A stretch of 64,000 nt of DNA. It comes from Phyllobacterium phragmitis. Its GTDB lineage: Bacteria; Pseudomonadota; Alphaproteobacteria; Rhizobiales; Rhizobiaceae. The translations under genes were made by a program, and so were the position numbers. Positions 1,739 through 17,269 of this stretch are shown one piece after another. How positions within the stretch are numbered: position 1 is the stretch's first letter; every line of letters begins with the position of its first letter. Below the pieces are notes generated by a model, which saw nothing but the letters and a program-made list of their open reading frames with translations, was not told where the DNA came from and did not search any database. The stretch is taken from assembly GCF_002980495.1 (NCBI RefSeq), contig NZ_PVBR01000001.1, positions 248,001 to 312,000 of the forward strand. The letters run 5' to 3'.

Positions 1739-2278
1739 ATGACAACCAGGTCCGATACTGCGGGAAGCGCTTCCGAGCGCGCCTGTGCTGGCTATCGCCT
1801 GCACGGCAAATACGGCGTGCCTCATGCCGAGATCGCTTTTGTTCTGGGGGTGGAGGAACGCATTTACCTGAACCGGTTGCGCCGCGGGGGGATTGATCCC
1901 GATATGACCAAGCGCGCCGATGACCTGCCGCTCGATGTGGAGGAGATACTGGCGAATATCCGCAACGAGCTCGTGCGCCTGACGGAAGGCGGCAAGGTGC
2001 CTGACAAGGCGGCGGTCGATGCGCTCGGGTCTCTGGCACGGGCACTGAAGGCATTCATCGAACTGGCGCGCGAGAACACGGTGCAACCCGCGCCGGCCGC
2101 CGATCCGGTGGCAGTCAAGCCGGAAGAACTGCGCGACGCGCTGGCGCGCATCGACAGGAGGATCAACGAACTTGCAGATGTCCGGGCAGCCGAAATTATT
2201 CAACGTCGGCATGAAGGACAATTTGAAGGGCAATCTGGCGATGGCGGTGGACAGGGAGTGGTTCTGCCAGGGGCGTGA
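1739..2278 (+). CDS. Putative GTA small terminase subunit (g1-like)
   Basis: A 179-residue protein that is the first gene of the GTA-like cluster, directly before the large terminase. The N-terminal part (about residues 15-45) could form a small DNA-binding helical domain (YRLHGKYGVPHAEIAFVLGV). The middle and C-terminal parts are charged and helical (EEILANIRNELVRL; RDALARIDRRINELADV), as in small terminases that oligomerise and recognise DNA for packaging. Small terminases diverge strongly, so the call rests on position, size and helical content rather than a conserved motif. It overlaps the start of the large terminase gene by about 100 nt in another frame, which suggests translational coupling. 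Confidence 0.6.
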   Translation: MTTRSDTAGSASERACAGYRLHGKYGVPHAEIAFVLGVEERIYLNRLRRGGIDPDMTKRADDLPLDVEEILANIRNELVRLTEGGKVPDKAAVDALGSLARALKAFIELARENTVQPAPAADPVAVKPEELRDALARIDRRINELADVRAAEIIQRRHEGQFEGQSGDGGGQGVVLPGA

Positions 2279-3479
2279 TGCCCAGCAGCCGCCGATGGCG
2301 CCCTGGCGCACCTGGCTCATCATGGGCGGGCGCGGTTCGGGCAAGACCCGCGCAGGCGCCGAATGGACCGCCGGAATAGCGATGGGGCTTCCGACCATTG
2401 CCTCGGCGAAATCCGGCCATATCGCCCTGGTCGGCGAGACGCTTGCCGATGTGCGCGAAGTCATGGTGGAGGGGCCGTCGGGCATCCTGTCCGTCTCGCG
2501 CTGTGAGCGCCCCCGGCTCGAAGCGACGCGGCGGCGGCTGGTCTGGGAGAGTACGGGCGCGGTGGCGTCGTTCTTTTCCTCCGAGGACCCGGACAGTCTG
2601 CGCGGACCGCAATTCGATGCGGCGTGGTGCGACGAGCTGGCCAAGTGGAAACATCCGCAGGAGACATGGGACATGCTGCAGTTCGGCCTCAGGATCGGAC
2701 GGTTTCCGCGTCAGATCGTGACGACGACACCACGCCCGGTCGGCCTGCTGCGTACGCTGCTTGCCGACAAATCCATACCTCTGACGCGGATGAGGACGGC
2801 TGAGAATGCCGGCCATCTCGCATCGGGCTTTTTGGAGGCGGTCGAGAGCCGCTATGCCGGTTCGCGGCTCGGGCGGCAGGAACTGGACGGCGAGCTGATC
2901 GAGGACCGCGCCGATGCGCTCTGGTCGCGTTCGTCGATCGAAGGGCTCGTCCGCAAGGTGGTTCCACCGCTCAGGCGCGTTGTCGTCGCTATCGATCCGC
3001 CTGCGACCGCGGGACGGAATTCCGATGCCTGCGGCATCGTTGCGGCGGGCATCGATCATGACGGTTTCGGCTGGGTTCTGGCCGATGAAAGCCTTGTCCA
3101 CGCCAAGCCTTATCAATGGGCGCGCCAGGCCGTTGCGCTTTATCACCGCCTCGAGGCGGATATCGTCATCGCCGAAGTCAATCAGGGCGGCGACATGGTG
3201 GCGGCGGTGATTGCCGCCGAAGACCATAGCGTTCCCGTCCGCTCGGTTCGGGCGATGCGCGGCAAATGGCTTCGCGCCGAACCGGTCGCAGCGCTTTATG
3301 AGCAGGGCCGCATCCGTCACACCAGGCGTTTTCCGGGGCTCGAGGACGAGATGTGCGATTTCGCACCGGGCGGCCTTTCCTCCGGCCGCTCGCCCGATCG
3401 TCTCGATGCGCTCGTCTGGGCCCTCAACGAATTGATGCTGGGCAAGGACAAGATGCCGAGGATCCGAAGGATGGAGTAG
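2172..3479 (+). CDS. GTA/phage large terminase subunit (g2-like)
   Basis: This is the packaging motor ATPase and nuclease that would fill GTA heads with host DNA. Walker A is GGRGSGKT (residues 52-59), a Walker B-like AAWCDE follows near 150-155, and the coupling motif TTTPRP lies near 184-189. The C-terminal RNase H-like nuclease is marked by VVAIDPPA, IAEVNQGGD and DRLDALVWAL. The 435 residues fit the family. A strong AGGAGG (2156-2161) sits 10 nt before the TTG at 2172, so TTG is plausible; ATGs at 2178, 2211 and 2241 are alternatives. A palindromic repeat follows the stop codon. Confidence 0.93.
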   Translation: MQMSGQPKLFNVGMKDNLKGNLAMAVDREWFCQGRDAQQPPMAPWRTWLIMGGRGSGKTRAGAEWTAGIAMGLPTIASAKSGHIALVGETLADVREVMVEGPSGILSVSRCERPRLEATRRRLVWESTGAVASFFSSEDPDSLRGPQFDAAWCDELAKWKHPQETWDMLQFGLRIGRFPRQIVTTTPRPVGLLRTLLADKSIPLTRMRTAENAGHLASGFLEAVESRYAGSRLGRQELDGELIEDRADALWSRSSIEGLVRKVVPPLRRVVVAIDPPATAGRNSDACGIVAAGIDHDGFGWVLADESLVHAKPYQWARQAVALYHRLEADIVIAEVNQGGDMVAAVIAAEDHSVPVRSVRAMRGKWLRAEPVAALYEQGRIRHTRRFPGLEDEMCDFAPGGLSSGRSPDRLDALVWALNELMLGKDKMPRIRRME

Positions 3480-3521
3480 TTTAGAGCCGTTCCTGTTTTG
3501 ACGGAATCATTTGTGTTCTCA

Positions 3522-3680
3522 CCCCCCTCTGCCCTGCCGGGCATCTCCCCCTCAAAGGGGGGAGATCAGGCCTTCATAAACGTGTGGCACCAATCGCAGA
3601 CGTTTCAGAATGAAAGCGGAAAGCATTGTCAGCCAATCTCCCCCCTTGAGGGGGAGATGCCCGGCAGGGCAGAGGGGGGT
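3522..3680. repeat. RIME-like palindromic repeat, type A copy 1
   Basis: Two inverted arms of about 45 nt (CCCCCCTCTGCCCTGC... and its complement, each holding an inner CTCCCCC/GGGGGAG hairpin) flank a central segment of about 70 nt. It lies between the large terminase and portal genes. It resembles the Rhizobium intergenic mosaic elements and Brucella palindromic repeats; the family name is by analogy. Other type A copies are listed below. Confidence 0.85.
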
Positions 3681-3730
3681 ATTTTGACCACAAAACCTCG
3701 AAATTTCCCTTTAAAAACAAGGAAAACCCC

Positions 3731-4888
3731 ATGCCATTATCATGGCCGTGGCGCAGGCGTGCCGCGATTGCTCCCGCACGCACCGAAGCAAAGTCCGCCA
3801 CGGGTTTCGTGGCGCTGCATGTGGAACAGAGCGCATCCTGGATCGCGCGCGATTATCCGACGCTGGCGCGCGAAGGCTTCATGCGCAACCCGGTCGTCCA
3901 TCGCGCCGTGCGTATGATCGCCGAGGCGGCGAGCGCCGTGCCCTGGCTGCTTTATGAAGGCTCGACCGAACATGAGGCGCATCCGCTGCTCGATCTCCTG
4001 GCCAGGCCGCGCCGGGGATCGAACGGCGCCGCATTTTTCGAGATGCTCTACGGCCACCTGCTTCTCTCGGGTAACGCCTATGTCGAGCGTATCGAAACGG
4101 CTGGCGGCGCGCGCGAACTGCATCTTCTGCGCCCGGAGCGCATCACCGTCGAGACGGATGGTGAGGGGTGGCCGCAAGCGCTGGCCTATCGTTGCGGCGC
4201 GGCCAAGCGCATCGTGCCTCTCGATGGCCCGGCGGGCGGGCAGGCGCTGCATCTAAGCCTCTTCCACCCGCTTGACGATCACTATGGCTTTGCCCCGCTC
4301 GAAGCAGCCTTGATGGCCCTCGATATCCACAATGCGGCGGGCGCCTGGAACAAGGCGTTGCTCGACAATTCCGCACGCCCCTCCGGCGCACTGGTCTACG
4401 CGCCGAAGGATGGCGGCAATCTGACGGAGGAACAGTTCGCAAGGCTCAAAACCGAGCTGGAGGATGGCTATACCGGCGCGGCGGGGGCGGGTCGTCCGCT
4501 GCTCCTCGAAGGCGGCCTCGACTGGAAAGCGATGGGGCTTTCGCCGCGCGACATGGATTTCATTGAGGCGAAGAACGCCGCAAGCCGTGATATCGCTCTC
4601 GCCTTCGGCGTGCCGCCGATGCTGCTCGGCATTCCCGGCGACAATACCTACGCCAACTATGCCGAGGCCAACCGTGCCTTCTATCGCCTGACGGTATTGC
4701 CGCTGATCGCGCGCACCGCCAAGGCGTTCGGCAATTGGCTGGCGCCGCTCTATGGCGACGATCTGCGTCTGGAGCACGATTATGACCGCATCGAAGGACT
4801 TTCTGCCGAGCGCGATGCGCTCTGGCAGCGCATTTCCAACGCGTCCTTCCTGACCGACGAGGAGAAGCGGCAGGCGGTAGGGTATTGA
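3731..4888 (+). CDS. GTA/phage portal protein (g3-like, HK97 type)
   Basis: Forms the dodecameric portal at the head vertex through which DNA is packaged and to which the tail attaches. The 385-residue length is typical of HK97-like portals, as are an early YPTLAREGFMRNPVVHRAV stretch, GNAYVERI in the centre, FGVPPMLLGIPGD near residue 300 and a late LPLIARTAKAFGNWL helix. The ATG at 3731 is preceded by AAGGAAAA at good spacing. Palindromic repeats stand on both sides, so the portal is a module of its own. Family assignment is firm; function as part of an active GTA is inferred. Confidence 0.92.
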   Translation: MPLSWPWRRRAAIAPARTEAKSATGFVALHVEQSASWIARDYPTLAREGFMRNPVVHRAVRMIAEAASAVPWLLYEGSTEHEAHPLLDLLARPRRGSNGAAFFEMLYGHLLLSGNAYVERIETAGGARELHLLRPERITVETDGEGWPQALAYRCGAAKRIVPLDGPAGGQALHLSLFHPLDDHYGFAPLEAALMALDIHNAAGAWNKALLDNSARPSGALVYAPKDGGNLTEEQFARLKTELEDGYTGAAGAGRPLLLEGGLDWKAMGLSPRDMDFIEAKNAASRDIALAFGVPPMLLGIPGDNTYANYAEANRAFYRLTVLPLIARTAKAFGNWLAPLYGDDLRLEHDYDRIEGLSAERDALWQRISNASFLTDEEKRQAVGY

Positions 4889-4928
4889 ACAGCGCTTGTC
4901 GCTAGGACACGATTTGTCCTTCACCTCA

Positions 4929-5096
4929 CCCCTCATCCGACCGCTTCGCGGCCACCTTCTCCCACAAGGGGAGAAGGAAAGGCTCGCACGAACGCTTCTG
5001 CTAATCGCCAACGTTTGGTTTGGCCGGAGTCCAATGCAGTGCTCCTCCCTTCTCCCCTTGTGGGAGAAGGTGGCCGCGAAGCGGTCGGATGAGGGG
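4929..5096. repeat. RIME-like palindromic repeat, type B copy 1
   Basis: A second repeat family: the outer arm CCCCTCATCCGACCGC...GCGGCCACC and inner arm CTTCTCCCACAAGGGGAGAAG are repeated as an inverted copy ending in GGTCGGATGAGGGG. The central spacer is about 70 nt. It lies between the portal gene and the small membrane-protein gene. Transcribed on either strand it could fold into strong hairpins. Confidence 0.87.
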
Positions 5097-5131
5097 TGTC
5101 TGGCACGGTAATCCCAAAATGGAGAACCCCC

Positions 5132-5512
5132 ATGAGCGCGCTCAATGAACCGGGCTTGGTGGGCGATATGGCATGGATATGGCTGGCGAAGGCCGCAGGC
5201 GCTGTTGCCGGTTCCGCCGTGTCGCTCGCCTATATGCTGCCCAAGGGAAAGCAGGAGGCGGCGATCCGTTTCGCCGTCGGCATCATCTGCGGTCTGGTTT
5301 TCGGCGGAGCGGCGGGCGTCAAGATCGCCGAACAGCTCGCCATCGACGGGGATCTCGGCAAGGCGGAGCTCATGCTGATGGGATCGGCTGCCGCAAGCCT
5401 TGCGGCATGGTCGGCGCTCGGCATCTTCAACCGTTTTACCGAACGCATGAAGACCACAGCGCTTCCCGATTTCATTTCAGAAAAACAGAAGGAAATCCGC
5501 GATGAAGGCTGA
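5132..5512 (+). CDS. Small GTA-cluster membrane protein (between portal and protease)
   Basis: A 126-residue protein with about three hydrophobic segments (roughly residues 14-38, 44-66 and 80-97) and a charged C-terminal tail (SEKQKEIRDEG). It occupies the place of the small ORF that follows the portal gene in many alphaproteobacterial GTA clusters. Its role is unknown. The ATG at 5132 follows GGAG at a fair distance; the longer reading frame begins inside the preceding repeat and is less likely. It overlaps the start of the protease gene by 11 nt, which ties it to the head module. Confidence 0.75.
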   Translation: MSALNEPGLVGDMAWIWLAKAAGAVAGSAVSLAYMLPKGKQEAAIRFAVGIICGLVFGGAAGVKIAEQLAIDGDLGKAELMLMGSAAASLAAWSALGIFNRFTERMKTTALPDFISEKQKEIRDEG

Positions 5513-6194
5513 GCAGGCGAAGCTGCGGCCAAAGCTGCAACTTGAGACGAAACTGGCCGGATTGGCGCTTGAGCAGGTGGATATCGACGGCAGCTTTTCC
5601 GGTTATGCCAGCCTCTTCGGCGAAGTGGATCTCGGTCAGGACATCATCGAGCCGGGAGCGTTCGCCAGATCGCTGAAGACCCGCGGCACGTCAGGCATCC
5701 GCATGCTGTGGCAGCATGATGCCAATGAGCCCATCGGCGTCTGGACCGTGATCAGGGAAGATGCACGCGGCCTCTATGTGGAAGGGCGCCTGGCCAAGGG
5801 CGTTCCGCGGGCCCGGGACGCGCTCGAACTGATGCGCAGCGGCGCGCTCGACGGGCTTTCCGTCGGCTTTCGCACGGCACGCGCCCGCAAGGAGGCAAGG
5901 ACCGGGATCCGCCGTATCATCGAGGCCGATCTCTGGGAGATTTCCGTGGTCACGTTCCCGATGCTGCCTTCCGCGCGCATCAGCAGCGTCAAGGCCACGA
6001 TGCTGCCGACAACAAGGGAATTCGAACGCTGGCTCACGCGGGACGCGGGGTTCAGCCGTAGCGAAGCGCGCATCGTGATCGCCAAGGGTTACGCGGCGGT
6101 CGCGGGCACGAATGCAGACGGGCGGGATGCCGTTTCTGCCTCACCCGAAACGCTGGCCGGGCGCATCCGCGCCGCCGCCAGACAAATTTCATGA
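5502..6194 (+). CDS. HK97-family prohead protease (g4-like)
   Basis: The S78/U35 serine protease that matures the capsid by removing the scaffold-like delta domain. The signature FSGYASLFGEVDLGQDIIEPGAF lies at about residues 32-54. The likely catalytic His is in MLWQHD (H72) and the likely catalytic Ser in DGLSVGF (S120), followed by WEISVVTFPM. The length of 230 residues is normal. The start ATG is inside the preceding gene with GAAGGAAA upstream. It is followed after 12 nt by the capsid gene, the classic protease-capsid order. Confidence 0.93.
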   Translation: MKAEQAKLRPKLQLETKLAGLALEQVDIDGSFSGYASLFGEVDLGQDIIEPGAFARSLKTRGTSGIRMLWQHDANEPIGVWTVIREDARGLYVEGRLAKGVPRARDALELMRSGALDGLSVGFRTARARKEARTGIRRIIEADLWEISVVTFPMLPSARISSVKATMLPTTREFERWLTRDAGFSRSEARIVIAKGYAAVAGTNADGRDAVSASPETLAGRIRAAARQIS

Positions 6195-6206
6195 GAAGGA
6201 ACAACG

Positions 6207-7481
6207 ATGCAGGAAGAAACAATTACGGCATCCGAGAAGAAGAGCGTCGAGATCAAGGCGATCGGCAGCGGACAGGACGTCGCCGAAGCGTTCGACGAGT
6301 TCATGTCGGCCTTCGATGCCTTCAAGCAGGCCAATGACGAACGGCTTGATAAGATCGAAAAGCGGGTCGGTCCCGATGTGCTGACGGTGGAGAAGGTCGA
6401 TCGCATCAACCGCAGCCTCGAAGAGCAGAAGCAGGTGCTCGACCAGATGCAGCTGAAACAGGCCCGCCCGTCGCTTGGAAGCTCGCTTGGACGCGGCAAC
6501 CCGGTCGCCTCGCTCGAACACAAAAATGCCTTCGAAACCTATGTCCGCCGGGGCGACGAACAGGCCCTGCGCGGCATCGAGCAGAAGGCGCATTCCTACG
6601 GTTCCGGTCCCGATGGCGGCTATCTGGTGCCGGCGGAAATCGAGACCGAAATCGGCAAACGGCTTGCCCGGCTTTCGCCGATCCGCTCTGTCGCTAGCGT
6701 ACGGCAGGTCTCCGGCGCCGTGCTGAAGAAGCCGTTCTCCGTGAGTGGCCCGGCGGTCGGCTGGGTGGGCGAGACGGATGCGCGTCCGGAAACGGCGTCG
6801 GGCGTGCTCGCCGAACTGCAGTTTCCGACGATGGAGCTCTACGCCATGCCGGCCGCGACCGCTTCGCTTCTCGACGATGCGGCGATCGATGTCGAGCAGT
6901 GGATTTCGGCGGAAGTGGAGGCGGCCTTCGCCGAGCAGGAAAGCGCCGCTTTCATCAGTGGCGACGGCGTCAACAAGCCGCGTGGCTTTCTCGATTATGA
7001 AAGCGTTGCGGAAGCCGATTGGGAGTGGGGCAAGCTCGGTCATCTCGCAACCGGCGTTGCCGGTGGATTGCCGGCTGAAGATGCTTCCGATGTGCTGATC
7101 GAGCTCGTTTACTCGCTGAAGGCCGGCTACCGCCAGAACGCGAACTGGGTGATGAACCGCAAGAGCCAGGCAGCGCTTCGCAAGCTCAAGGACAATGACG
7201 GCAATTATCTCTGGCAGCCGCCTGCCGTCGTGGGAGAGAAGGCATCGCTGATGGGCTTCGGGCTGGTCGAAGCCGAGGACATGCCGGATATCGCGGCCGA
7301 TACGAGCGCCATCGCGTTTGGCGATTTCAGCCGCGGCTATCTGGTCGTCGACCGCACCGGCGTCCGTATCCTGCGCGATCCTTATTCCGCCAAGCCCTAT
7401 GTGCTGTTCTATACGACCAAGCGTGTAGGCGGCGGCATCCAGGATTTCGACGCGATCAAGATATTGAAGTTCTCCGCGTGA
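6207..7481 (+). CDS. HK97-fold major capsid protein (g5-like)
   Basis: Main shell protein of the GTA-like particle, 424 residues. The N-terminal 100 or so residues are charged and predicted coiled coil (DEFMSAFDAFKQANDERLDKI; RINRSLEEQKQVLDQMQ), matching the delta domain cut off by the prohead protease. The mature part has typical capsid motifs such as YGSGPDGGYLVPAEI, EQESAAFISGDG, WVMNRKSQAALRKLKD and GFGLVEAEDMP. AAGGAACA precedes the ATG. Length and composition are intact, and nothing suggests decay. Confidence 0.94.
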   Translation: MQEETITASEKKSVEIKAIGSGQDVAEAFDEFMSAFDAFKQANDERLDKIEKRVGPDVLTVEKVDRINRSLEEQKQVLDQMQLKQARPSLGSSLGRGNPVASLEHKNAFETYVRRGDEQALRGIEQKAHSYGSGPDGGYLVPAEIETEIGKRLARLSPIRSVASVRQVSGAVLKKPFSVSGPAVGWVGETDARPETASGVLAELQFPTMELYAMPAATASLLDDAAIDVEQWISAEVEAAFAEQESAAFISGDGVNKPRGFLDYESVAEADWEWGKLGHLATGVAGGLPAEDASDVLIELVYSLKAGYRQNANWVMNRKSQAALRKLKDNDGNYLWQPPAVVGEKASLMGFGLVEAEDMPDIAADTSAIAFGDFSRGYLVVDRTGVRILRDPYSAKPYVLFYTTKRVGGGIQDFDAIKILKFSA

Positions 7482-7497
7482 GTTAGGTGTTGCTACA

Positions 7498-7658
7498 CCC
7501 CCCTCTGCCCTGCCGGGCATCTCCCCCTCAAGGGGGGCGATTGGCTGATACGGCTCCCTGCGTTCGTTCTACAACATCCGCGATTGATTGATGCCGAACG
7601 TTCATGACGGCGTAATCTCCCCCTTGGGGGGGAGATGGCCGGCAGGCCAGAGGGGGGT
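7498..7658. repeat. RIME-like palindromic repeat, type A copy 2
   Basis: Same inverted arms as copy 1 but with a different central segment (contains CGATTGATTGATGCC), shared with copies at 12991 and 28551. It begins 17 nt after the capsid stop and ends 22 nt before the next start codon, so it forms nearly the whole intergenic region. Confidence 0.86.
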
Positions 7659-7680
7659 GATCCTCCAACAAGGATTCCCC

Positions 7681-8247
7681 ATGACCATGCATTTAGTCAC
7701 GCCGCCGGCGGTCGAGCCGGTGACGCTCGCGCAAACGCGCGCTTTTCTCAAAATCTCTACCGAAAGCGAAGACACACTCCTGGAACAGCTTCTGCGCACG
7801 GCGCGCGAGGTGGTGGAAAGCCAGACCGGGCTGGCGCTGATCAGCCAGACCTGGCGGCTCCATCTCGACCGCTGGCCGCGCTCTGGCCGCATCGCGCTTT
7901 TTCGCTATCCCGTGCAGGAGATCGTGGAGGCGAGGGCCTATGCTCCGGACGGAGCGCCGGTGGTGATCGGCCTGGGCGAGCGGCATCTCCACGAGGGATC
8001 GCGCCCGCAACGGCTTTATCTTAACCGGCGCTTAGGCTCGGCCGCGCTTGGCGGGCTGGAAATCGATTTCGTGGCGGGTTTTGGCGAAACCGGCGCGGAC
8101 GTGCCGGACGCACTGAAACACGCCATCTTGACGCTTGTCGCGCATTTCTACGAATTCCGTGGTGCCTTCGATGGCGAGGCGCAGCCGGTCTCCTTCCCGC
8201 CGGCCTTCGACCGTCTGGTGGAAATCTGGCGCAGGGTATCGCTATGA
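7681..8247 (+). CDS. Head-tail connector, GTA g6-like
   Basis: A 188-residue head-completion adaptor of the gp6/HK97 connector kind. N-terminal features TLAQTRAFLKI and LEQLLRTAREVVESQTG and the C-terminal DALKHAILTLVAHFYEFRG are typical of phage conserved connector proteins. The ATG at 7681 lies just after the palindromic repeat, with AAGGATT upstream; the frame stays open into the repeat, but that part is not credible protein. It overlaps the next gene by ATGA (start 8244, stop 8245-8247), so the two are translationally coupled. Confidence 0.88.
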   Translation: MTMHLVTPPAVEPVTLAQTRAFLKISTESEDTLLEQLLRTAREVVESQTGLALISQTWRLHLDRWPRSGRIALFRYPVQEIVEARAYAPDGAPVVIGLGERHLHEGSRPQRLYLNRRLGSAALGGLEIDFVAGFGETGADVPDALKHAILTLVAHFYEFRGAFDGEAQPVSFPPAFDRLVEIWRRVSL

Positions 8248-8579
8248 ACACCGTCTTTATCGATGCCGGACGGCTTTCGAGCGAACTGGCGCTCGAACGG
8301 ATCCGTCCCGCCCCCGACGGTATCGGCGGCTACACGGAAAAAAGGGAAGAGGTTGCGACCCTATGGGGCCGTGTCGAGCCCGTCTCCGACACGGCGCGAT
8401 ATTTCGGGGCACAGCCGCTCGAAGAGATCACCCATCGCATTATCCTGCGTTTCCGCAACGACGTCGAGAGCGGCATGCGCCTGCGCAAGGGAGAGCGGCA
8501 TTTCACGATCATTACCGTTCATGATCCTGATGAAAGCCGCCGCTATTGTCTGTGTCGCGTCAGGGAGGAGGGGCGATGA
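8244..8579 (+). CDS. Head-tail adaptor (stopper), GTA g7-like
   Basis: A 111-residue protein of the phage head-tail joining superfamily. It should sit below the g6 connector and stop DNA leaking until the tail joins. The central pattern ATLWGRVEPVSDTARYFGAQ and the later HRIILRFRNDVESGMRLRKG and FTIITVHDPDE are usual for this family. It is coupled by ATGA overlaps to both its upstream and downstream neighbours. Confidence 0.85.
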   Translation: MNTVFIDAGRLSSELALERIRPAPDGIGGYTEKREEVATLWGRVEPVSDTARYFGAQPLEEITHRIILRFRNDVESGMRLRKGERHFTIITVHDPDESRRYCLCRVREEGR

Positions 8580-8752
8580 AATTGTCGATGGCCCTGACCA
8601 TGGACGGTCTGATCCGCAGCTTGCGCTGGCATGGTGTCGAATTGCGGGAAAACGTGCCGGAACCGATGACGGATCGACGGAAGGAAGACGAACACGATGA
8701 CGAGCGCCAATATGGAATTGCACAAGGCGATCTATCTCGCCCTTTCCGGTGA
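8576..8752 (+). CDS. Small hypothetical protein between g7 and g8
   Basis: A 58-residue ORF that starts with an ATGA overlap on the g7 stop codon and has a strong GGAGGAGGGG Shine-Dalgarno, better than many neighbours. Its last 56 nt overlap the g8 gene in another frame. The N-terminal half is amphipathic (MDGLIRSLRWHGVEL) and the C-terminal half is very charged (DRRKEDEHDDER). No family is recognised. The ribosome binding site and coupling make it likely to be translated. Confidence 0.6.
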   Translation: MKLSMALTMDGLIRSLRWHGVELRENVPEPMTDRRKEDEHDDERQYGIAQGDLSRPFR

Positions 8753-9104
8753 TGCCGCACTGATAGCGAAATTGGGCGGCCCGAATGTCTACGATCACGT
8801 CCCCGCTGCCGCTGCCTTCCCTTACGTCACTTTCGGTCAGACGGCTGTCTACGATTGGAGCACCGACAGCGAAATCGGCGACGAGCATCTCTTCACCATC
8901 CATGTATGGTCGCGTGCGGGCGGCAAGAAACAGGTCCTGGAAATCATGGATTTGATTGCCACCCGGATGTCTGCCACCGCTCTGACGCTCGACCGGCACC
9001 GGCTCGTCAATCTAGCGCTACAATATTCGCAGGCGCGCAATGACGACGAACGCGACGGCTACCATGGCCTGCTGCGTTATCGGGCGGTGACCGAGGGGGT
9101 TTAG
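8697..9104 (+). CDS. Tail terminator, GTA g8-like (DUF3168)
   Basis: A 135-residue protein that should cap the tail tube at the head-proximal end. The pattern ELHKAIYLALSGDAALIAKL, then VYDHVPAAAAFPYVTFG, then HLFTIHVWSRAGGKKQ is characteristic of DUF3168 proteins. GGAAGGAAG precedes the ATG. A type B palindromic repeat starts 9 nt after its stop and closes the connector module. Confidence 0.9.
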   Translation: MTSANMELHKAIYLALSGDAALIAKLGGPNVYDHVPAAAAFPYVTFGQTAVYDWSTDSEIGDEHLFTIHVWSRAGGKKQVLEIMDLIATRMSATALTLDRHRLVNLALQYSQARNDDERDGYHGLLRYRAVTEGV

Positions 9105-9113
9105 CGCTGGATA

Positions 9114-9288: not shown

Positions 9289-9329
9289 TATCTCTCTCCC
9301 TTAAGTCATTCCCACAACAGGAGAATTCC

Positions 9330-9743: not shown

Positions 9744-10099
9744 TGGTGAACCGGCACCGTGGTGAAGTGGGTGCGGTTCTCGATGGCCGCGAATGGGCGC
9801 TCTGCCTGACGCTCGGGGCGCTTGCCGAACTGGAGGCAGCCTTCGAAGCCGAAGATTTGACCGCGCTCATTGCCCGGTTCTCCTCCGCCCGCCTTTCGGC
9901 ACGGGATATGGTGCGCATCATCACAGCCGGTTTGCGCGGTGGCGGACACAGCGTCACCGAAGACGATGTGGCGCAGATGCAGGCCGATGGCGGCGCGGCG
10001 GGTTTCGCCCGCATCGTCAGCGAATTGCTGACGGTCGCATTCGGCGCTGCGCAGGCGGCTACGGCGAAGCCGGAAAGCGATTCCCTTTCAAACCCTTGA
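9740..10099 (+). CDS. GTA g10-like tail assembly chaperone
   Basis: A 119-residue protein of the gene transfer agent gp10 family, encoded between the tail tube and tape measure genes, the usual place of tail assembly chaperones. The pattern NRHRGEVGAVLDGREWALCL TLGALAELE followed by LSARDMVRIITAGLRGGGH and VTEDDVAQM is typical. ATGA-type overlap with g9 upstream and TTGA overlap with the next ORF downstream show coupling. Confidence 0.88.
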   Translation: MMVNRHRGEVGAVLDGREWALCLTLGALAELEAAFEAEDLTALIARFSSARLSARDMVRIITAGLRGGGHSVTEDDVAQMQADGGAAGFARIVSELLTVAFGAAQAATAKPESDSLSNP

Positions 10100-10299
10100 G
10101 TGCCGCAGTTGAACCAGAGCCTTTCCCATGGGCGACCATGATGCAGGCGGGGCTGGGGCATCTGCGGCTTTCTCCCGAAGCCTTCTGGTCCATGACGCCG
10201 CGCGAACTGGCGGCGGCCATGGGTCTTTCCGCGCGCGCCGCGAACGCGCCGTCGCGCCAGACATTCGACGCCCTCATGCGGGCATTTCCCGACAGGTGA
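10096..10299 (+). CDS. GTA g10.1-like small tail chaperone
   Basis: A 67-residue protein with the family signature PFPWATMMQAGLGHLRLSP, then FWSMTPRELAAAM, and a C-terminal FDALMRAFPDR. I place the start at a TTG that overlaps the g10 stop (TTGA, 10096-10099), because the conserved PFPW segment lies before the first ATG pair (10138/10141). In tailed phages the second chaperone is often made by frameshift. Here both frames are separate, and either coupling or frameshifting is possible. Confidence 0.75.
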   Translation: MSAAVEPEPFPWATMMQAGLGHLRLSPEAFWSMTPRELAAAMGLSARAANAPSRQTFDALMRAFPDR

Positions 10300-10302
10300 A
10301 AT

Positions 10303-10851
10303 ATGGCTGAAAACGAGAATGTAACCGTCGCGATCGAGGCGGATACCAGCGCCTTCGACAAGGCGCTCGACGATTTGCAGAAGAAATCCGGCCAGTTCGG
10401 CACCAGCTTGACGGCGGCGTTGAAGGGAGCCGCGATCAGCGGGCGCGGCCTCGATGATGTGCTGCGCGGGCTCGCCACCAATCTCGCCGGCCTCGCGCTC
10501 GAAACCGGTTTGAAGCCGCTGCAGGGGCTGATGTCGTCGCTGTTCTCCGGCCTCCTTGGCGGCGTCGGCGGTGTTACACCTTTCGCCAAGGGCGGTGTGG
10601 TGTCGAGCCCGACCTATTTCGGCATGGCTGGCGGTTCGCTGGGTTTAAGCGGCGAGGCGGGCGCCGAGGCCATCCTGCCGCTCGCCCGCGGTGCGGACGG
10701 CCGCCTCGGCGTGGCAACCGGCACTTCGGGAAAATCCATGCAGGTCGTTTTCAACGTCTCGACGCCTGATGCCGCGTCATTCCGCAAATCGGAGGCGCAA
10801 CTGTCCGGCATGCTGGCACGGACCGCACGGCGCGGCGCAAGGAGCTTGTGA
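10303..10851 (+). CDS. Short tape measure protein, GTA g11-like
   Basis: A 182-residue protein that begins ENVTVAIEADTSAFDKALDDLQKKSGQ and has a Gly/Leu-rich hydrophobic middle (about residues 58-90), followed by FAKGGVVSSPTYFGMAGGSLGLSGEAGAEAILPLARG, a well-known tape-measure/minor tail motif. Most phage tape measures are several times longer. The short length predicts a very short tail and fits known GTA tails. It is coupled to the next gene by a GTGA overlap. Confidence 0.88.
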   Translation: MAENENVTVAIEADTSAFDKALDDLQKKSGQFGTSLTAALKGAAISGRGLDDVLRGLATNLAGLALETGLKPLQGLMSSLFSGLLGGVGGVTPFAKGGVVSSPTYFGMAGGSLGLSGEAGAEAILPLARGADGRLGVATGTSGKSMQVVFNVSTPDAASFRKSEAQLSGMLARTARRGARSL

Positions 10852-11501
10852 ATATCATGGCCGAGATATCTTCCTTTCATGATGTGCGCTTTCCCCTCGG
10901 TGTCTCCTTCGGCGCAACGGGAGGCCCGGAATGGCGCAATGAAATCGTAACGCTCATTTCGGGCCACGAGAAACGCAATGCGCGCTGGGCGCAGTCCCGC
11001 CGGCATTTCGATGCGGGAACGGGTCTGCGCTCGCTGCACGATTTGAGGGAAGTTCTGGCCTTCTTCGAAGCGCGGCACGGTTCGCTCCACGCTTTCCGGT
11101 TCCGCGATCCATTCGATCATCTCTCGAACGAGAATGGCGGCGAGGTACTGCCCGGCGATCAATCGATCGGCACGGGCGACGGCAGGACGACGGCTTTCCA
11201 ATTGACCAAGAGCTATGGCGGGGGCGCTTATGTCCGCCCGATCACCAAGCCGGTCGCGGGCTCGGTCCGGATCGCCGTCGGCGGAGTCGAGATGATCGAG
11301 GGCGAGGCGCTCACCGTCGATAGCCTGACCGGCATCGTCACATTCACGCCCGAGTCGATCCCGCCTGTGGGCGCTTCGGTCACCGCCGGCTTCGTCTTCG
11401 ATGTCGCGGTGCGTTTCGACACGGACCGCCTTACAGCCAGCATCGCCTCGTTCAAGGCGGGAGAAATTCCTTCAGTTCCCATTATCGAGGTGAAAGCGTG
11501 A
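10848..11501 (+). CDS. Distal tail protein, GTA g12-like (DUF2460)
   Basis: A 217-residue baseplate/distal tail protein. The signature FHDVRFPLGVSFGATGGPEW is near the N-terminus, followed by HFDAGTGLRSLHDLREVLAFFEARHG and FRFRDPFDH, all typical of this family. The GTG at 10848 overlaps the g11 stop; ATG at 10857 is the alternative, with AGGAG spaced somewhat short for the first and long for the second. A type C palindrome follows the stop. Confidence 0.92.
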   Translation: MNIMAEISSFHDVRFPLGVSFGATGGPEWRNEIVTLISGHEKRNARWAQSRRHFDAGTGLRSLHDLREVLAFFEARHGSLHAFRFRDPFDHLSNENGGEVLPGDQSIGTGDGRTTAFQLTKSYGGGAYVRPITKPVAGSVRIAVGGVEMIEGEALTVDSLTGIVTFTPESIPPVGASVTAGFVFDVAVRFDTDRLTASIASFKAGEIPSVPIIEVKA

Positions 11502-11521
11502 TTTGTCGGAATCACCAAGCG

Positions 11522-11637
11522 CCCTCGTCCTTCGAGGCTCCGCTCCGCTTCGCACCTCAGGATGAGGGCTACTGAAACGTCGGCGCCCTTCACCCTCATG
11601 GTGAGGTGCGAGCGAAGCGAGCCTCGAAGGACGAGGG
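11522..11637. repeat. Palindromic repeat, type C
   Basis: Inverted arms CCCTCGTCCTTCGAGGCTC / GAGCCTCGAAGGACGAGGG with a short spacer, and an inner GAGGTGCGAGCGAAGC-like region. It differs in sequence from types A and B. It fills most of the gap between the distal tail and hub genes. Confidence 0.85.
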
Positions 11638-11667
11638 TGAAGGGTCAAATATGGAAGGCTTTAAATC

Positions 11668-12546
11668 ATGATGCCCATTCCTCAAGCCCTTGAATCACAT
11701 TTGCAAGGGGTGGTGACAACCCATTGTTTCGTCTGGATCATTCGCCGCCAGGACGGCTCAGTCCTGGGCTTCACCGATCACGACAGGCGGCTTCTCGTCT
11801 CGGGCGTGACCTGCGAACCTCAGACAGGAATGACCGGCAGCGAGGCCAGTACCGCCCTTGGTCTTTCCGTCGACAGCGCTGAGATCGAAGGCGCGCTGTC
11901 TTCGCTCGCCATCGATCAGGCCGATATCGAGCGCGGCCTTTATGATGACGCCACGGTCGAAACCTATCTCGTCAACTGGTCGTCGCCGCAGGATCATGTG
12001 CTGCTGCGCCGCTCGATCATCGGAAAGATTACCTATGCCGATGGCAAATTTACCGCCGAGCTGAAGAGCAGCGCCGCCAATCTCGACAAGATCCATGGCC
12101 GCCGCGTCATGCGCAATTGCGACGCGGAACTGGGTGACCGGCGCTGTGGCGTCAACACCGGCGATCCGCGTTATTTCGCTGAAGCGGTGGTGGTCGCGAC
12201 CGGCGACGCCGCCTTTCTGGCCTCCGGCCTTGAGGGCTTTCAATCCCATTGGTTCGACAATGGCCGCCTGACCTGGACTGGCGGGGCGAATGCGGGGAAG
12301 GTGGCAATTGTCGTCAGTCATGCACCCGCAGGCCACATTGTGCTGCGCGATATCCCGGCCGACCCCGTAGCGGTTGGCGATACGTTCTGTGTCGTCGCCG
12401 GATGCGACAAGAGCTTTGCGCAATGCCGGGCAAAATTCGCCAACACCGTAAACTTTCGCGGCTTCCCGCATCTGCCCGGAAACGATGCCGCTTACGCTTA
12501 CGTCAACAGCGATGCGGAATTCGATGGGGAGCCTCTGGTGCCATGA
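11668..12546 (+). CDS. GTA hub/baseplate protein, g13-like (phage BR0599 family)
   Basis: A 292-residue tail-tip hub protein. It begins MMPIPQALESHLQGVVTTHC and continues with CFVWIIRRQDGSVLGFTDHD, DSAEIEGALSSLAIDQADIERGLYDDA and CDAELGDRRCGV, the pattern of the family first named from Brucella suis BR0599. The C-terminal CDKSFAQCRAKFANTVNFRGFPHLPG holds paired Cys residues; RcGTA g13 binds an iron-sulfur cluster, and whether this one does is inference. It overlaps the next gene by ATGA. Confidence 0.93.
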   Translation: MMPIPQALESHLQGVVTTHCFVWIIRRQDGSVLGFTDHDRRLLVSGVTCEPQTGMTGSEASTALGLSVDSAEIEGALSSLAIDQADIERGLYDDATVETYLVNWSSPQDHVLLRRSIIGKITYADGKFTAELKSSAANLDKIHGRRVMRNCDAELGDRRCGVNTGDPRYFAEAVVVATGDAAFLASGLEGFQSHWFDNGRLTWTGGANAGKVAIVVSHAPAGHIVLRDIPADPVAVGDTFCVVAGCDKSFAQCRAKFANTVNFRGFPHLPGNDAAYAYVNSDAEFDGEPLVP

Positions 12547-13061
12547 AGGAGATGACAATTGCATCATCGGTCCTGCGCGAGGCGGACGGCTGGATAGGCA
12601 CGCCCTATCGCCATGGCGGATCGTCGAAGGGCGTCGGCTGTGACTGTCTGGGCCTTGTCCGCGGCATCTGGCGCGCGCTCTATGGCGAAGAACCGGAGCA
12701 ACCCGGCGCCTATGCACCGGATTGGGCGGAAGCCGGTGGCGGCGATCGGCTGATCGATGCGGCGCGCCGCCATATGGCTGAAAAATCGGTCGGAACAATG
12801 CAGCCAGGCGATCTCCTGGTGTTTCGCTGGCGTCCATCCGTCGCCGCCAAGCATCTGGGCATCTTCGCCCCGGAAAACCGCTTCATCCACGCCTATGAGG
12901 GCCATCGCGTCATGGCGTCGGTGCTCGTTCCGCAATGGCGCCGGCGTATTGCTGGGGTATTCGCGTTTCCGGCTCCAGCGCGCTGCGATGCCCCCCCCTC
13001 TGCCCTCCTGAGCATTTATCGAAGGGCGGGCATCTCCCCCTCAAAGGGGGAGATTGGCTGA
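12543..13061 (+). CDS. NlpC/P60 tail peptidoglycan hydrolase, g14-like, repeat-derived C-terminus
   Basis: A cell-wall peptidase expected at the tail tip to help DNA cross the recipient wall. The catalytic Cys is in GCDCLGLVRG (C35) and the His in AAKHLGIF (H104). The recognisable family ends near residue 148 (IAGVFAFPAPA). After that, residues of about 150-172 are encoded by the palindromic repeat beginning at 12991, which also supplies the stop codon. The ATG overlaps the g13 stop. The enzyme core is complete; the added tail is probably harmless or unfolded, which is inference. Confidence 0.9.
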   Translation: MKEMTIASSVLREADGWIGTPYRHGGSSKGVGCDCLGLVRGIWRALYGEEPEQPGAYAPDWAEAGGGDRLIDAARRHMAEKSVGTMQPGDLLVFRWRPSVAAKHLGIFAPENRFIHAYEGHRVMASVLVPQWRRRIAGVFAFPAPARCDAPPSALLSIYRRAGISPSKGEIG

Positions 13062-13168
13062 TATCGTTCTCCGCGTTCCTCCTGCGATGTCTACGATTGA
13101 TGCTTCCCGTTCATGAAGGCGTAATCTCCCCCCTTGAGGGGGAGATGGCTGGCAGGCCAGAGGGGGGT
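12991..13168. repeat. RIME-like palindromic repeat, type A copy 3 (invades g14)
   Basis: Type A arms with the CGATTGATG-containing centre shared with copies 2 and 4. The left arm carries an extra insertion (CCTGAGCATTTATCGAAGGG) that resembles the hairpin core of the short copy at 38840. The first 71 nt are read as the C-terminal codons of the NlpC/P60 gene. Confidence 0.85.
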
Positions 13169-13212
13169 GCATCGCAGCACGCTGCCATCTAACTGTGAAA
13201 GATATAATCCCC

Positions 13213-16200
13213 ATGGCGACACTCGTTCTTCAGGCTGCCGGCGCTTACCTCGGCGGTTTTCTCGGCACGCTTGGCGGCACGATCGGTGCTGCGGCGGGTG
13301 CGCTGGGCGGCTATCTCCTCGATACGGCGCTGATCAATTCGACGCGCCGCACGGAAGGGCCGCGTCTGGCCGGAACGAAGCCGACGACGGCGGAAGAGGG
13401 CGCCGCACTTCCCTTCGTCTACGGCACCGCGCGCCTTTCCGGCACGCTGATCTGGGCGACCCGTTTCGAGGAAAAGGCGACGACGACCCGCCAGGGCGGC
13501 AAAGGCGGCGCGAAAAGCACCAATTACAGCTATTTCGCCAATGCCGCCTACGCCGTCGCGGCGGGCGAGATATCAGGCATCCGCCGCATCTGGGCCGACG
13601 GCAGGGAACTGGACCAGACCACCGTCGAAATGCGCATCTATCGCGGCACGGTCGACCAGATGCCCGATCCACTGATCGAGGCGAAGCAGGGCGATGGCAA
13701 TGCTCCCGCTTATCGCGGAACCGCCTATGTCGTCTTCGAGCGCATGCCGATCGACGATTACGGCAACCGGCTTCCGCAAATCCATTTCGAGGTGATACGG
13801 CCCGTCGGCGCTCTGGCAAAGGGCATTACGGCGGTCGCGCTTATCCCCGGCTCGACCGAGTTCGGCCTTTCGCCTGATGTGGTGACGGACGAGCCGAAGC
13901 CTGGGGAAACGCGCTCGCTCAACCGCAACGCGTTGCGTGGGCTAAGCGACTGGAACGCCTCGATGGACGAATTGCAGGCGCTTTGCCCTGGCCTTGAGCA
14001 TGTGGCGCTGGTCGTGCCGTGGTTCGGTGACGATCTGCGCGCCGGGGAATGTCGTATCCGGCCGGGCATTGTGGAGCCGAATGCCAGGCGGCCCAGCCAG
14101 GTCTGGCGCGTTGCCGGGTTGAAGCGAGGCGAAGCGCATCTTGTTTCCCGCAATGCGGTGGGCGCTGCCTATGGCGGCACCCCCTCCGACGAGAGCGTCA
14201 TCGCCGCTATCCGCGATGCGAAAGACCGTGGTCTAAAAGTCACTATTTATCCCTTCATCATGATGGATATCCCCGCGGATAATAACCTGCCGTCACCTTA
14301 TGGCGGGGAAACTCAGCCGGTTTATCCCTGGCGCGGACGCATCAGCTGTTTTCCCGGACCGGACCAGGAGAGAACCGCCGATCGCACGGTGATGGCGGCC
14401 AGCCAGATAACCGCCTTTCTCGATGGCGAATGGGGCTATCGGCGGTTCCTCAGGCACTGCGCCGGTCTGACAACCGCAGCCGGTGGCGTCGATGCATTCA
14501 TCATCGGTTCGGAACTGCGCGGTCTGACGACGCTCCGCGACGAGGCGAACGGCTTCCCCTTCGTTTCCGGCCTCTGTGAACTCGCCGCCGAAATGCGCTC
14601 CCGCCTCGGCCCGTCCTGCCAGCTGACCTATGCGGCGGATTGGTCGGAATATTTCGGGCACCACCCGCAGGACGGCAGCGGCAACGTCTATTTCCATCTC
14701 GATCCGCTATGGGCGCATCCGACGATCGATGCGGTCGGCATCGACAACTACATGCCGCTGGGCGACTGGCGCGACGAGGACGACAGGCGTTTCGGGCCGG
14801 ACAATCTCAGCGGCGCTTACGATATCGAGGGTCTTGTCGGCAACATTGCGGGCGGCGAAGGGTTCGACTGGTACTATGCCAGCGCAGCCGATCGCCAGAA
14901 CCGTGTCCGCTCGCCCATATCGGATGGTCTCTCGGGCAAGCCCTGGGTCTTCCGCTACAAGGATCTGAAGAGCTGGTGGGAAAATCCGCATTATAACAGG
15001 ATCGATGGCGTGGAAAGCGGGACGCCGACCGCATGGCAGCCAATGTCGAAGCCGTTCTGGTTCACCGAACTCGGCTGCCCTGCCGTGGACAAGGCTCCCA
15101 ACCAGCCGAACGTCTTTCCCGATCCGAAATCCTCCGAAAATGCCATTCCGTATTTCTCCGACGGTTCGCGTTCCGATCTGGCGCAAAGCCGCTTTCTTGG
15201 CGCACATCTCGATTACTGGAACCGGACGGAAAATGGCGGCAATCCCGTTTCTCCCATTTATGGAGGAACGATGCTGGATACTCGCCGCATCTATCTTTGG
15301 GCCTGGGATACCCGTCCTTTCCCTGAATTTCCGCTCAATGGCAGTCTCTGGGGAGATGCCGATAATTGGCGCCTTGGCCATTGGTTGAACGGACGGATAA
15401 GCGGCGTTGCGCTCGATGATCTGATAGCGGCCATATTCCAGGATTTCGGCCTGGAGGCAGCAGATACATCGGCCGCCGACGGCTATCTCTCCGGTTTCGT
15501 CATCGCAGAACCATCGACCGCGCGCTCGGTTCTGGAGCCGTTGCTGGACCTGTTCGGCATCCATGCCTTCGAGACGAAAGACCAATTCGTCTTCCGCAGC
15601 GCCGCCAGGCTGTCCCCGTCGCTTCTGGTCGAGCATATCGTCCTGCCCGATAACGAGGGAGCTTCGATGACATCGATGCTGGAAGATCGCAATGATCTTC
15701 CAGGCACGGTGGAAGTGTTCTTCAGCGACCCCATGCGCAATTATCAGACGGGGAGCGCGGTTGCGGTGAGGAGCGAGGGTAAAGGGCAGGGAAGAGAGAC
15801 GCTGACGCTGGCGGGTTCGATGGAAGCCGGACAGGCAAGGGCGTTGGCGGAAAACTGGCTGAGAAGATGCTGGGCGGGACGGCGAACGACAAGCCTTTCG
15901 GTGCCATGGGACCATGTCGGCCTGTCGGTCGGCGACACGATCAGCCCCTCCGGCGATGCCGAGGCTACGGAGTTCGTCGTGACCGCTCTGGAGGATGGCG
16001 CGGAGCGCAATGTCCAGGCTGTAGCCATCGCGCCGCATGTGCGCTTTCCCGATGTCGGAACATTGCCTTCGGTCCCGCCGGGGAATCCCTTCACCAATGA
16101 CGGGAAGCCGTTTTTCCACCTGATCGATCTGCCTGCCTGGCCGGGAGCCGAGGACGCTGCAAGCCAGTTCCGTCTCGCCTGCTATGCCAGGCCGTGGCGC

Positions 16201-17040
16201 GGCGTTAGCGCATATGCATCACCACAATCGGATGGCTATTCCACGCGGACCCTCGTGGGCAGCAGGGCAATTGTCGGGGAACTGACGGCGCCGCTGCCGC
16301 CGGGCAACAGCGGCAGGTTCATGAATACGCAGGCCGTGGATGTGTTGCTTTATGCCGGAGAGTTACGTTCCCAGCCCAAGGCGCAGCTTTTCAACGGCGC
16401 AAATGCGGCTTTGCTTCAGGCGCCCGATGGAAGCTGGGAAGTGTTCCAGTTTCTCGAAGCTGTGGAAACAGCCGATAGCCAGTGGCGGCTGACCTGCCTG
16501 TTGCGTGGACAGCTTGGCACGGAAGAAGAGGCCGCCATGCCGAAGCCGGCGGGCACACCATTCGTGCTGCTGGATGATGCAATCGTGCCGGCGGGCTTGC
16601 AGGCGTCGGAGATCGGCCTGGCGCTCAACTGGCGGATCGGCACGGCCGGACGTGATTTTTCGGAGCTCTATTTCGATACGGTCGAAGCTGTCGGCGGCCT
16701 TAGGGCACTTCAACCGTTGAGCCCGGTGCATCTTGCCGCCAGGCAATTGCCGAACGGCGATATCGCCGCAAGCTGGATCCGGCGCGGCCGCATCGATGCG
16801 GACAATTGGTTCGGTACTGACATTCCCTTGGGCGAAGAGCAGGAAATCTATCAGGTCGAGATATGGCGGGGCGGTTCAGTGATACGGCAGGCGCAGGTGA
16901 GGGAACCGCTATGGAATTATGCCGCGGCGGACCGAACCGCCGATCTTGGTGGCCGCTTTGAACCATTCGAATTGGCGGTGGCAATGATCAGCGCCAGAAC
17001 CGGGGCAGGCAGGTTCGCCCGTCTCACCGTTGATTTTTAA
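13213..17040 (+). CDS. GTA tail fibre/host-contact protein, g15-like ('megatron')
   Basis: A 1275-residue tail-tip protein that completes the GTA tail. The N-terminus is Gly/Ala-rich and hydrophobic (LGGFLGTLGGTIGAAAGALGG). The central half holds the glycoside-hydrolase-like TIM-barrel region of GTA tail proteins (KVTIYPFIMMDIPADNNLP; DAFIIGSELRGLTTLRD; YAADWSEYFGHHP; KPFWFTELGCPAVDKAPNQ). The C-terminal half has a phage tail-tip fold and a late FGTDIPLGEEQEIYQVEI segment. ATG 13213 is preferred to GTG 13195 because the conserved family starts with MATLVLQAAG. The ORF is intact. Confidence 0.93.
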   Translation: MATLVLQAAGAYLGGFLGTLGGTIGAAAGALGGYLLDTALINSTRRTEGPRLAGTKPTTAEEGAALPFVYGTARLSGTLIWATRFEEKATTTRQGGKGGAKSTNYSYFANAAYAVAAGEISGIRRIWADGRELDQTTVEMRIYRGTVDQMPDPLIEAKQGDGNAPAYRGTAYVVFERMPIDDYGNRLPQIHFEVIRPVGALAKGITAVALIPGSTEFGLSPDVVTDEPKPGETRSLNRNALRGLSDWNASMDELQALCPGLEHVALVVPWFGDDLRAGECRIRPGIVEPNARRPSQVWRVAGLKRGEAHLVSRNAVGAAYGGTPSDESVIAAIRDAKDRGLKVTIYPFIMMDIPADNNLPSPYGGETQPVYPWRGRISCFPGPDQERTADRTVMAASQITAFLDGEWGYRRFLRHCAGLTTAAGGVDAFIIGSELRGLTTLRDEANGFPFVSGLCELAAEMRSRLGPSCQLTYAADWSEYFGHHPQDGSGNVYFHLDPLWAHPTIDAVGIDNYMPLGDWRDEDDRRFGPDNLSGAYDIEGLVGNIAGGEGFDWYYASAADRQNRVRSPISDGLSGKPWVFRYKDLKSWWENPHYNRIDGVESGTPTAWQPMSKPFWFTELGCPAVDKAPNQPNVFPDPKSSENAIPYFSDGSRSDLAQSRFLGAHLDYWNRTENGGNPVSPIYGGTMLDTRRIYLWAWDTRPFPEFPLNGSLWGDADNWRLGHWLNGRISGVALDDLIAAIFQDFGLEAADTSAADGYLSGFVIAEPSTARSVLEPLLDLFGIHAFETKDQFVFRSAARLSPSLLVEHIVLPDNEGASMTSMLEDRNDLPGTVEVFFSDPMRNYQTGSAVAVRSEGKGQGRETLTLAGSMEAGQARALAENWLRRCWAGRRTTSLSVPWDHVGLSVGDTISPSGDAEATEFVVTALEDGAERNVQAVAIAPHVRFPDVGTLPSVPPGNPFTNDGKPFFHLIDLPAWPGAEDAASQFRLACYARPWRGVSAYASPQSDGYSTRTLVGSRAIVGELTAPLPPGNSGRFMNTQAVDVLLYAGELRSQPKAQLFNGANAALLQAPDGSWEVFQFLEAVETADSQWRLTCLLRGQLGTEEEAAMPKPAGTPFVLLDDAIVPAGLQASEIGLALNWRIGTAGRDFSELYFDTVEAVGGLRALQPLSPVHLAARQLPNGDIAASWIRRGRIDADNWFGTDIPLGEEQEIYQVEIWRGGSVIRQAQVREPLWNYAAADRTADLGGRFEPFELAVAMISARTGAGRFARLTVDF

Positions 17041-17062
17041 TAACACAGAAAGGTGAACTTGA

Positions 17063-17269
17063 ATGAACTCCGTCAAACCTTGGTTTCTGTCCAAAACCAT
17101 ATGGGCGTCCGCAGTGACGTTTGCGATCTCGATCGCAGGATTGCTCGGCCTTTCCACTGACACGATCGACCAGCAATCGCTCGTCGATATTCTCATGCAG
17201 TTTGCCACAGCCCTGGCGGGACTGGTTGCCATCGTCGGGCGTTTCAACGCGGATTCCAGGATTTCGTAA
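17063..17269 (+). CDS. Small two-TM membrane protein, possible holin
   Basis: A 68-residue protein 22 nt after g15 with AAAGGTGA upstream of its ATG. It has two hydrophobic stretches (about residues 12-31 and 43-60) separated by an acidic loop, and starts with KPWFLSKTIWAS, a pattern seen in small phage membrane proteins. Its position, size and topology fit a holin for particle release, but no catalytic endolysin gene is beside it. It is the last gene before a terminator-like hairpin. The function is inferred only. Confidence 0.6.
   Translation: MNSVKPWFLSKTIWASAVTFAISIAGLLGLSTDTIDQQSLVDILMQFATALAGLVAIVGRFNADSRIS

Follow-up and report, generated by a model that had tools for sequence, protein, structure and literature searches.

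When strong palindromes divide a gene transfer agent (GTA) cluster into blocks of genes, do the blocks reflect regulation or the insertion of repeats? The question is raised by a 64,000-nucleotide stretch of Phyllobacterium phragmitis DNA (contig NZ_PVBR01000001.1, positions 248,001 to 312,000; hereafter the window), whose GTA cluster resembles that of Rhodobacter capsulatus (RcGTA) and carries palindromic elements at six gene borders. An earlier note on this DNA had suggested that these elements could be a regulatory layer cutting the cluster into functional modules. We instead favor, with a probability of roughly 0.8, a maintained RcGTA-type cluster that has been colonized by dispersed palindromic repeats of the REP (repetitive extragenic palindromic), RIME or Bru-RS kind, the apparent modules being a by-product of insertion. 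This reading is built on the genes themselves, three repeat families, their copies throughout the genome, turnover among relatives and one clean empty site.

Dispersed repeats in a maintained GTA cluster

The region from 1739 to 17040 is an RcGTA-type cluster, g1 to g15, open and under purifying selection. Its structural genes are homologous to those of RcGTA and keep the RcGTA gene order, all on a single strand. We call the cluster open and selectively maintained because its reading frames are intact, with no stops, and because dN/dS across g1–g15 is 0.04–0.29 between the window and its nearest relative, locus L001. The earlier description of an intact GTA-like cluster in RcGTA order is thus borne out.

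Six inverted repeats are found where that note had placed six palindromic elements, and they fall into three dispersed families, with three copies of A, two of B and one of C. Element A1 (3515–3685, inverted repeat 3521–3680) lies between g2 and g3, at a site that is also filled in L001. Element B1 (4920–5105, inverted repeat 4927–5098) separates g3 from a membrane open reading frame (ORF) resembling g3.5 and has perfect 51-bp arms at 4927–4977 and 5048–5098. Element A2 (7490–7665, inverted repeat 7496–7659) occupies g5/g6, element B2 (9110–9293, inverted repeat 9135–9263) occupies g8/g9, and element C1 (11515–11650, inverted repeat 11522–11637) occupies g12/g13, where the site is empty in L001. 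Element A3 (12985–13175, inverted repeat 13031–13147, outer arms 12976–13006 and 13154–13184) fills g14/g15 and overlaps the 3′ end of g14. No Rfam family matches anywhere in the window at the gathering threshold.

The claim that elements stand only at borders holds for the five that lie in gaps and fails for A3, which starts within the g14 frame (12543–13061) and supplies its C-terminal codons, about the last 25, to 13061. In six of nine aligned relatives g14 ends no more than about nine residues from a conserved FP motif; the exceptions are L001 and L002, whose tails are short and of their own, and L003, which continues with residues related to those of the window. The g14 frame enters a family A element both in the window (12985–13061) and in L003, giving related repeat-encoded tails. 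Genes were also said to overlap or abut inside the modules; several do overlap, and the gaps that hold no element are at most 22 bp when a small ORF at 8546–8752 is counted as a gene.

All three families are dispersed. Family A has 88 matches in the genome (from 40 scored of 126 candidates), family C has 90 (from 40 scored of 59), and family B has 67 with both strands counted, or about 27 places after merging by eye; elsewhere in the window, outside the cluster, A or B is matched eight more times. Family A is present in 167 plasmid records, 126 of them from Sinorhizobium or Rhizobium. The one plasmid copy that was opened, from Phyllobacterium zundukense, sits between a substrate-binding-protein gene and a permease gene, a transporter-gene setting that resembles the classic REP example. 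In 400 kb of genome samples, 33 palindromes comprise 14 in same-strand gaps, 12 in convergent gaps, 2 in divergent gaps and 5 inside ORFs, as placed by crude gene calls, the same caller having set only four of the six cluster elements between same-strand genes.

High-copy dispersed palindromes that are mostly intergenic are the mark of REPs, and the window families are of this kind. PMC3733652 reports that the REPs of REP-rich genomes are found chiefly between ORFs that are unidirectional or convergent, and that many of them are plausibly transcribed. The REP and BIME repeats described there, tagged with GTAG or CGTC, share with ours a dispersed, palindromic form, a preference for same-strand or convergent gaps and frequent pairing in opposite orientation; they differ in size, as the window elements are composites of about 115–190 bp compared to REP units of 20–40 bp, and in that no linked transposase was found here. 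Family C, the one family checked for tags, has CGTC beside its palindrome, yet this motif is paired in the fold of the whole element. The Bru-RS repeats of Brucella, compared by description only (PMC2267715), are likewise dispersed intergenic palindromes of similar size (118 nt and 222 members, as we read the table) in related bacteria. Family A has no match in the genomes of Brucella pseudogrignonensis or Falsochrobactrum tianjinense. Judging by name and taxa, with sequences not compared, we take the RIME repeats of rhizobia to be likely relatives of the window repeats. RIME (Osteras 1995) is cited in PMC2245857 and PMC2873474. Literature searches combining GTAs with palindromic repeats, with REPs or with clusters of Rhizobiales give no report of palindromes at GTA borders among the titles and abstract openings listed. 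One survey (PMC9836097) places GTA clusters far from long repeats, above 800 bp; the short palindromes here behave differently from the long repeats of that survey.

Turnover and placement among relatives

A five-protein tree of the 72 loci that hold all five proteins resolves the nearest relatives as ((((window, L001), L002), L003), L004), with supports, read from the innermost node outward, of 1.0, 0.72, 1.0 and 1.0; the remaining Brucella and Ochrobactrum loci lie outside that group. Within it the borders turn over. At g12/g13, L001 and L002 retain a 4-base overlap (GTGA in L001) and no element, and the window carries C between the old stop and the new start, which makes L001 a clean empty site; L004 also has C, and L003 has an A-type element with another palindrome inside, as judged by eye. 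The g3/g3.5 border holds B in the window, A in L001 and other palindromes in L003 and L004; in L002 it is a 32-bp gap without an element. The g8/g9 border holds B in the window, A in L004 and a short piece of A in L003; L001 has a stretch there that we read as a remnant, and L002 has nothing recognizable.

The clear shared site is g2/g3, where the flanks of the window and L001 agree up to the ends of the element, and where 78 of 81 arm positions and 60 of 78 loop positions are identical. Among the paired positions 38 are unchanged, one is changed on both sides, one is changed on one side and one is gapped. Loop identity is far lower at g5/g6 (31/79 for window and L001, 34/77 for L001 and L002) and at g14/g15 (23/65 for window and L001), and these loops are of subfamilies that recur at other places in the genome. 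Because these loops diverge and the g2/g3 flanks agree, shared descent is clear for g2/g3 only.

The earlier note had proposed comparing repeat positions in close relatives, with random variation counting against a regulatory role. The elements do vary in presence and family, but their positions are not random, as a few junctions are reused. Two observations accompany this turnover. Different palindromes are nested within apparent family A elements at g5/g6 and g12/g13 of L003, by eye. In addition, g3/g3.5 and g12/g13, where genes overlap in most loci, are occupied by one family in some close relatives and by another family in others.

We then surveyed the junctions of 81 loci, comprising the window and the best 80 of 569 confirmed stretches, some of them cut by contig ends. 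A palindrome was counted at a score of at least 17, and junction spans of at least 1.5 kb were excluded; this threshold misses g5/g6 in L002 (score 16) and g12/g13 in L003 (16) and L004 (15). In relatives, gene starts were set by a simple rule, and some are wrong, such as that of g13 in L001. The P values treat loci as independent, which related loci are not. Twenty of the 81 loci have a palindrome at any junction and 61 have none, and 37 of 1196 junction-loci are occupied. Occupancy is highest at g3/g3.5 (10/72), g2/g3 (9/72) and g5/g6 (7/76), followed by g8/g9 (4/74), g14/g15 (3/61), g10.1/g11 (2/73), g12/g13 (1/73) and the border of g15 with the small transmembrane (TM) ORF (1/58). No palindrome occurs at g1/g2 (28 loci), g3.5/g4 (80), g4/g5, g6/g7, g7/g8 or g9/g10 (77 each), g10/g10.1 or g11/g12 (74 each) or g13/g14 (73). 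A search for the families themselves finds A, B or C in 12 of the 81 loci, including matches upstream of g1 or g2.

Palindromes favor junctions with spacer, and spacer length probably helps to decide where they survive, although this is only partly shown. With the median gap taken from loci without palindromes, 26 of 565 junction-loci are occupied at the eight junctions whose median gap is at least 3, compared to 11 of 631 at the nine remaining junctions (P 0.007). A split into occupied and unoccupied junctions (37/559 and 0/637) was dropped, as it is chosen by its own outcome, and the weaker median-gap split was used instead. Across all 17 junctions, median gap and occupancy show a rank correlation of 0.42 (P 0.09), rising to 0.58 (P 0.02) without g7/g8, whose gap holds a small ORF in 43 of 77 loci.

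Some relatives have much larger gaps, of about 1.3–6.4 kb, at g4/g5 (L041, L049, L078), g3/g3.5 (L025, L039, L047, L050, L066) and g8/g9 (L062, L065, L077); simple gene finding suggests that these are inserted or rearranged genes. One surveyed record titled Bacillus subtilis strain SK6B4 (L009) holds a Pseudochrobactrum-like GTA cluster and is probably mislabeled or a mixed assembly.

Gene content and host

All cluster genes lie on the + strand, in the order g1, g2, g3, a DUF6107 membrane ORF, g4–g10, g10.1, g11–g15 and a small TM ORF, and Pfam or PHROGs puts a name on most of them. Seven products were set against solved structures, and six of them (portal, capsid, adaptor, tail tube, hub and megatron) find their match in chains of PDB 6tba. 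The seventh, g1 (1739–2278, 179 aa), matches nothing in Pfam or PHROGs and nothing credible in the PDB, and is a putative small terminase by its position before the large terminase alone. The latter, g2 (2172–3479), matches Terminase_6N and Terminase_6C in Pfam, the source of the family names that follow unless stated. The head genes are the portal g3 (3731–4888; Phage_portal; Rcc01684, E 4.4e-116), the prohead protease g4 (5502–6194; Peptidase_S78), the major capsid protein g5 (6207–7481; Phage_capsid; Rcc01687), the head-tail adaptor g6 (7681–8247; Phage_connect_1; Rcc01688) and the head completion protein g7 (8244–8579; Phage_HCP). The g3.5-like DUF6107 ORF spans 5096–5512, and its start context makes the ATG at 5132, outside element B1, the likelier start.

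The tail completion protein g8 (8697–9104; Tail_completion_gp17) is followed by the tail tube g9 (9330–9743; Phage_tail_2; Rcc01691), g10 (9740–10099; Phage_TAC_11 GTA-gp10), the tail assembly chaperone g10.1 (10093–10299, start not fixed; Phage_TAC_6), the short tape measure g11 (10303–10851; PHROGs tape measure families, no Pfam match) and g12 (10848–11501; DUF2460). The baseplate hub g13 (11668–12546; Phage_phiJL001_Gp84_N and Phage_BR0599; 6tba chain), the NlpC/P60 protein g14 and the megatron or tail fiber protein g15 (13213–17040; GTA_TIM and Rcc01698_C; 6tba chain) complete the series. The small TM ORF beyond it (17063–17269) may be holin-like, from a weak match to PHROGs phrog_34682 (holin, E 0.00088). 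The small ORF between g7 and g8 (8546–8752), which has no Pfam or PHROGs family match, finds its counterpart in 43 of 77 loci holding both g7 and g8, and its dN/dS of 0.70 against L001 suggests that it is possibly fast evolving or not a protein.

The window cluster shares gene order and six 6tba-matching products with RcGTA, and differs in the DUF6107 ORF between g3 and g4, the small ORF between g7 and g8 and the six borders that carry palindromic repeats. A 298-aa ORF with a DUF6456 match (E 2.5e-47; locus L101, G000:C1:237719-241126), about 10.1 kb upstream of g1, is a GafA-type regulator, DUF6456 being what we take as the mark of GafA; the search covered this half, the partner half being DnaA-like. 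PMC9638019 reports that gafA is split in two genes in Hyphomicrobiales.

By this locus the host resembles Phyllobacteriaceae. Phyllobacterium salinisoli is closest, with Mesorhizobium sp. RMAD-H1 and Paramesorhizobium deserti also near and then Brucella endophytica, and the Brucellaceae host assumed in the earlier note is not what the locus shows.

Insertion weighed against other accounts

Repeats of this kind would arrive by transposition or recombination and would persist mainly where no protein is interrupted and no closely coupled genes are parted. Selection would remove an insertion that disrupts a protein and, in most cases, probably also one that comes between coupled genes, leaving in the window survivors at a few junctions and one gene end, with the apparent modules as the stretches between them.

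Several observations weigh against this account. No transposase is tied to the elements, as the one Y1_Tnp match in the genome has no A, B or C copy and no strong palindrome in the surrounding 3.4 kb; the association of REPs with REP-associated tyrosine transposases (RAYTs) is, according to PMC3733652, frequent and not universal. Spacer length explains only part of the placement, in line with the correlations above. The main exception is g3/g3.5, with a median gap of −4 and yet palindromes in 10 of 72 loci; g12/g13, also at −4, is used in several near relatives, while g11/g12 (gap 9) and g7/g8 (gap 154, small ORF excluded) are never used. The genome of L023 has 69 family A candidates, yet its cluster has no family match. 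Palindromes occupy 6 of 18 cluster junctions compared to 3 of 78 in long same-strand runs, although the gene calls are not like for like. The conserved arms at g2/g3 could reflect structural selection or exchange between many copies, and one weak terminator-like match lies directly before A1 (3487–3504).

The junction contrast would suit a second account, which makes GTA clusters a dedicated hot spot of repeats, for instance through cheap insertion or high transcription. Consistent with this, the cluster is denser in palindromes than samples of its genome in the window (6 in 15.3 kb compared to 33 in 400 kb), in L001 (4 in 15.0 kb compared to 2 in 200 kb) and in L004 (4 in 13.1 kb compared to 18 in 200 kb), and the rate per junction exceeds that of same-strand sample junctions (14/243), again from gene calls that are not directly comparable. 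The excess in the window was noticed after the fact. The flanks are rich too, with 15 palindromes in 88.5 kb (window), 6 in 80 kb (L001) and 7 in 37.5 kb (L004), and against them the cluster gives, in the same order, conditional P values of 0.08, 0.06 and 0.31 and Poisson P values of 0.05, 0.03 and 0.23. Because the contrast weakens with neighboring stretches as the control, we do not claim GTA-specific enrichment; we read the excess as regional, any addition by the cluster itself being modest at most, and consider a dedicated hot spot unlikely. In all three genomes palindrome density is raised over tens of kb around the GTA locus relative to the samples from other parts of the genome (window 17270–64000; L123–L130).

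Element load tracks the genome in part. Family A candidates number 69–243 in five of the genomes searched (L001–L004 and L023), and the genomes of L006 and L014, whose clusters are free of elements, have no element A match from 11 and 18 candidates, respectively. Against both this trend and a hot spot, L002 has 110 candidates genome-wide and a single family match, an A element, in its cluster.

Could the hairpins instead be sites of mRNA processing or protection, so that within one GTA transcript the segments for portal, capsid, tail and baseplate differ in stability? The three elements that were folded, of the six, are A1, B1 and C1, and they give RNA structures far stronger than their shuffles (z −15.0, −12.6 and −9.8), the elements stand between same-strand genes, in gaps of the kind where REPs accumulate and are plausibly transcribed, and the arms of the shared g2/g3 element are better conserved than its loop. 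The Phyllobacterium zundukense plasmid copy between transporter genes points the same way. Such a role is nevertheless hard to reconcile with the 61 of 81 loci that have no palindrome at the junctions examined, with the changes in presence and family among the four nearest relatives and with the absence of the window's g12/g13 element from the sister locus. The same variation argues against the proposed regulatory layer of functional modules, and we regard dedicated mRNA sites as improbable. That the elements are terminators splitting the cluster into separate operons with internal promoters is scarcely credible: purine-rich, Shine-Dalgarno-like sequence gives g3, g3.5, g6, g9 and g13 start contexts of their own, by eye, but a scan covering sigma-70-type consensus and short loops finds no + strand terminator-like match within any element, on which ground intrinsic termination was rejected as the leading explanation, and its promoter-like count is 5 compared to a shuffle mean of 4.4.

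Insertion of dispersed repeats, our preferred reading, leaves room for consequences. A side effect of the hairpins on the polycistronic mRNA, through 3′-end protection, processing or polarity, is plausible, as each element would fold into a long hairpin that separates cistrons. It is a far more doubtful step to suppose that in sister lineages a small set of borders, overlapping-gene borders included, has been hit again and again by unrelated families, with each landing perhaps uncoupling two genes, so that they are translated separately on either side of a hairpin, and retuning GTA protein ratios, which would amount to a recurrent, convergent adjustment of a domesticated phage.

For GTA biology the locus carries a caution, that gene blocks bounded by repeats are not to be read as regulatory modules. 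It also offers a natural experiment, in that a given border carries a hairpin in some sister GTA clusters and lacks one in others, and if the hairpins do tune expression, filled and empty sites would permit a direct test.

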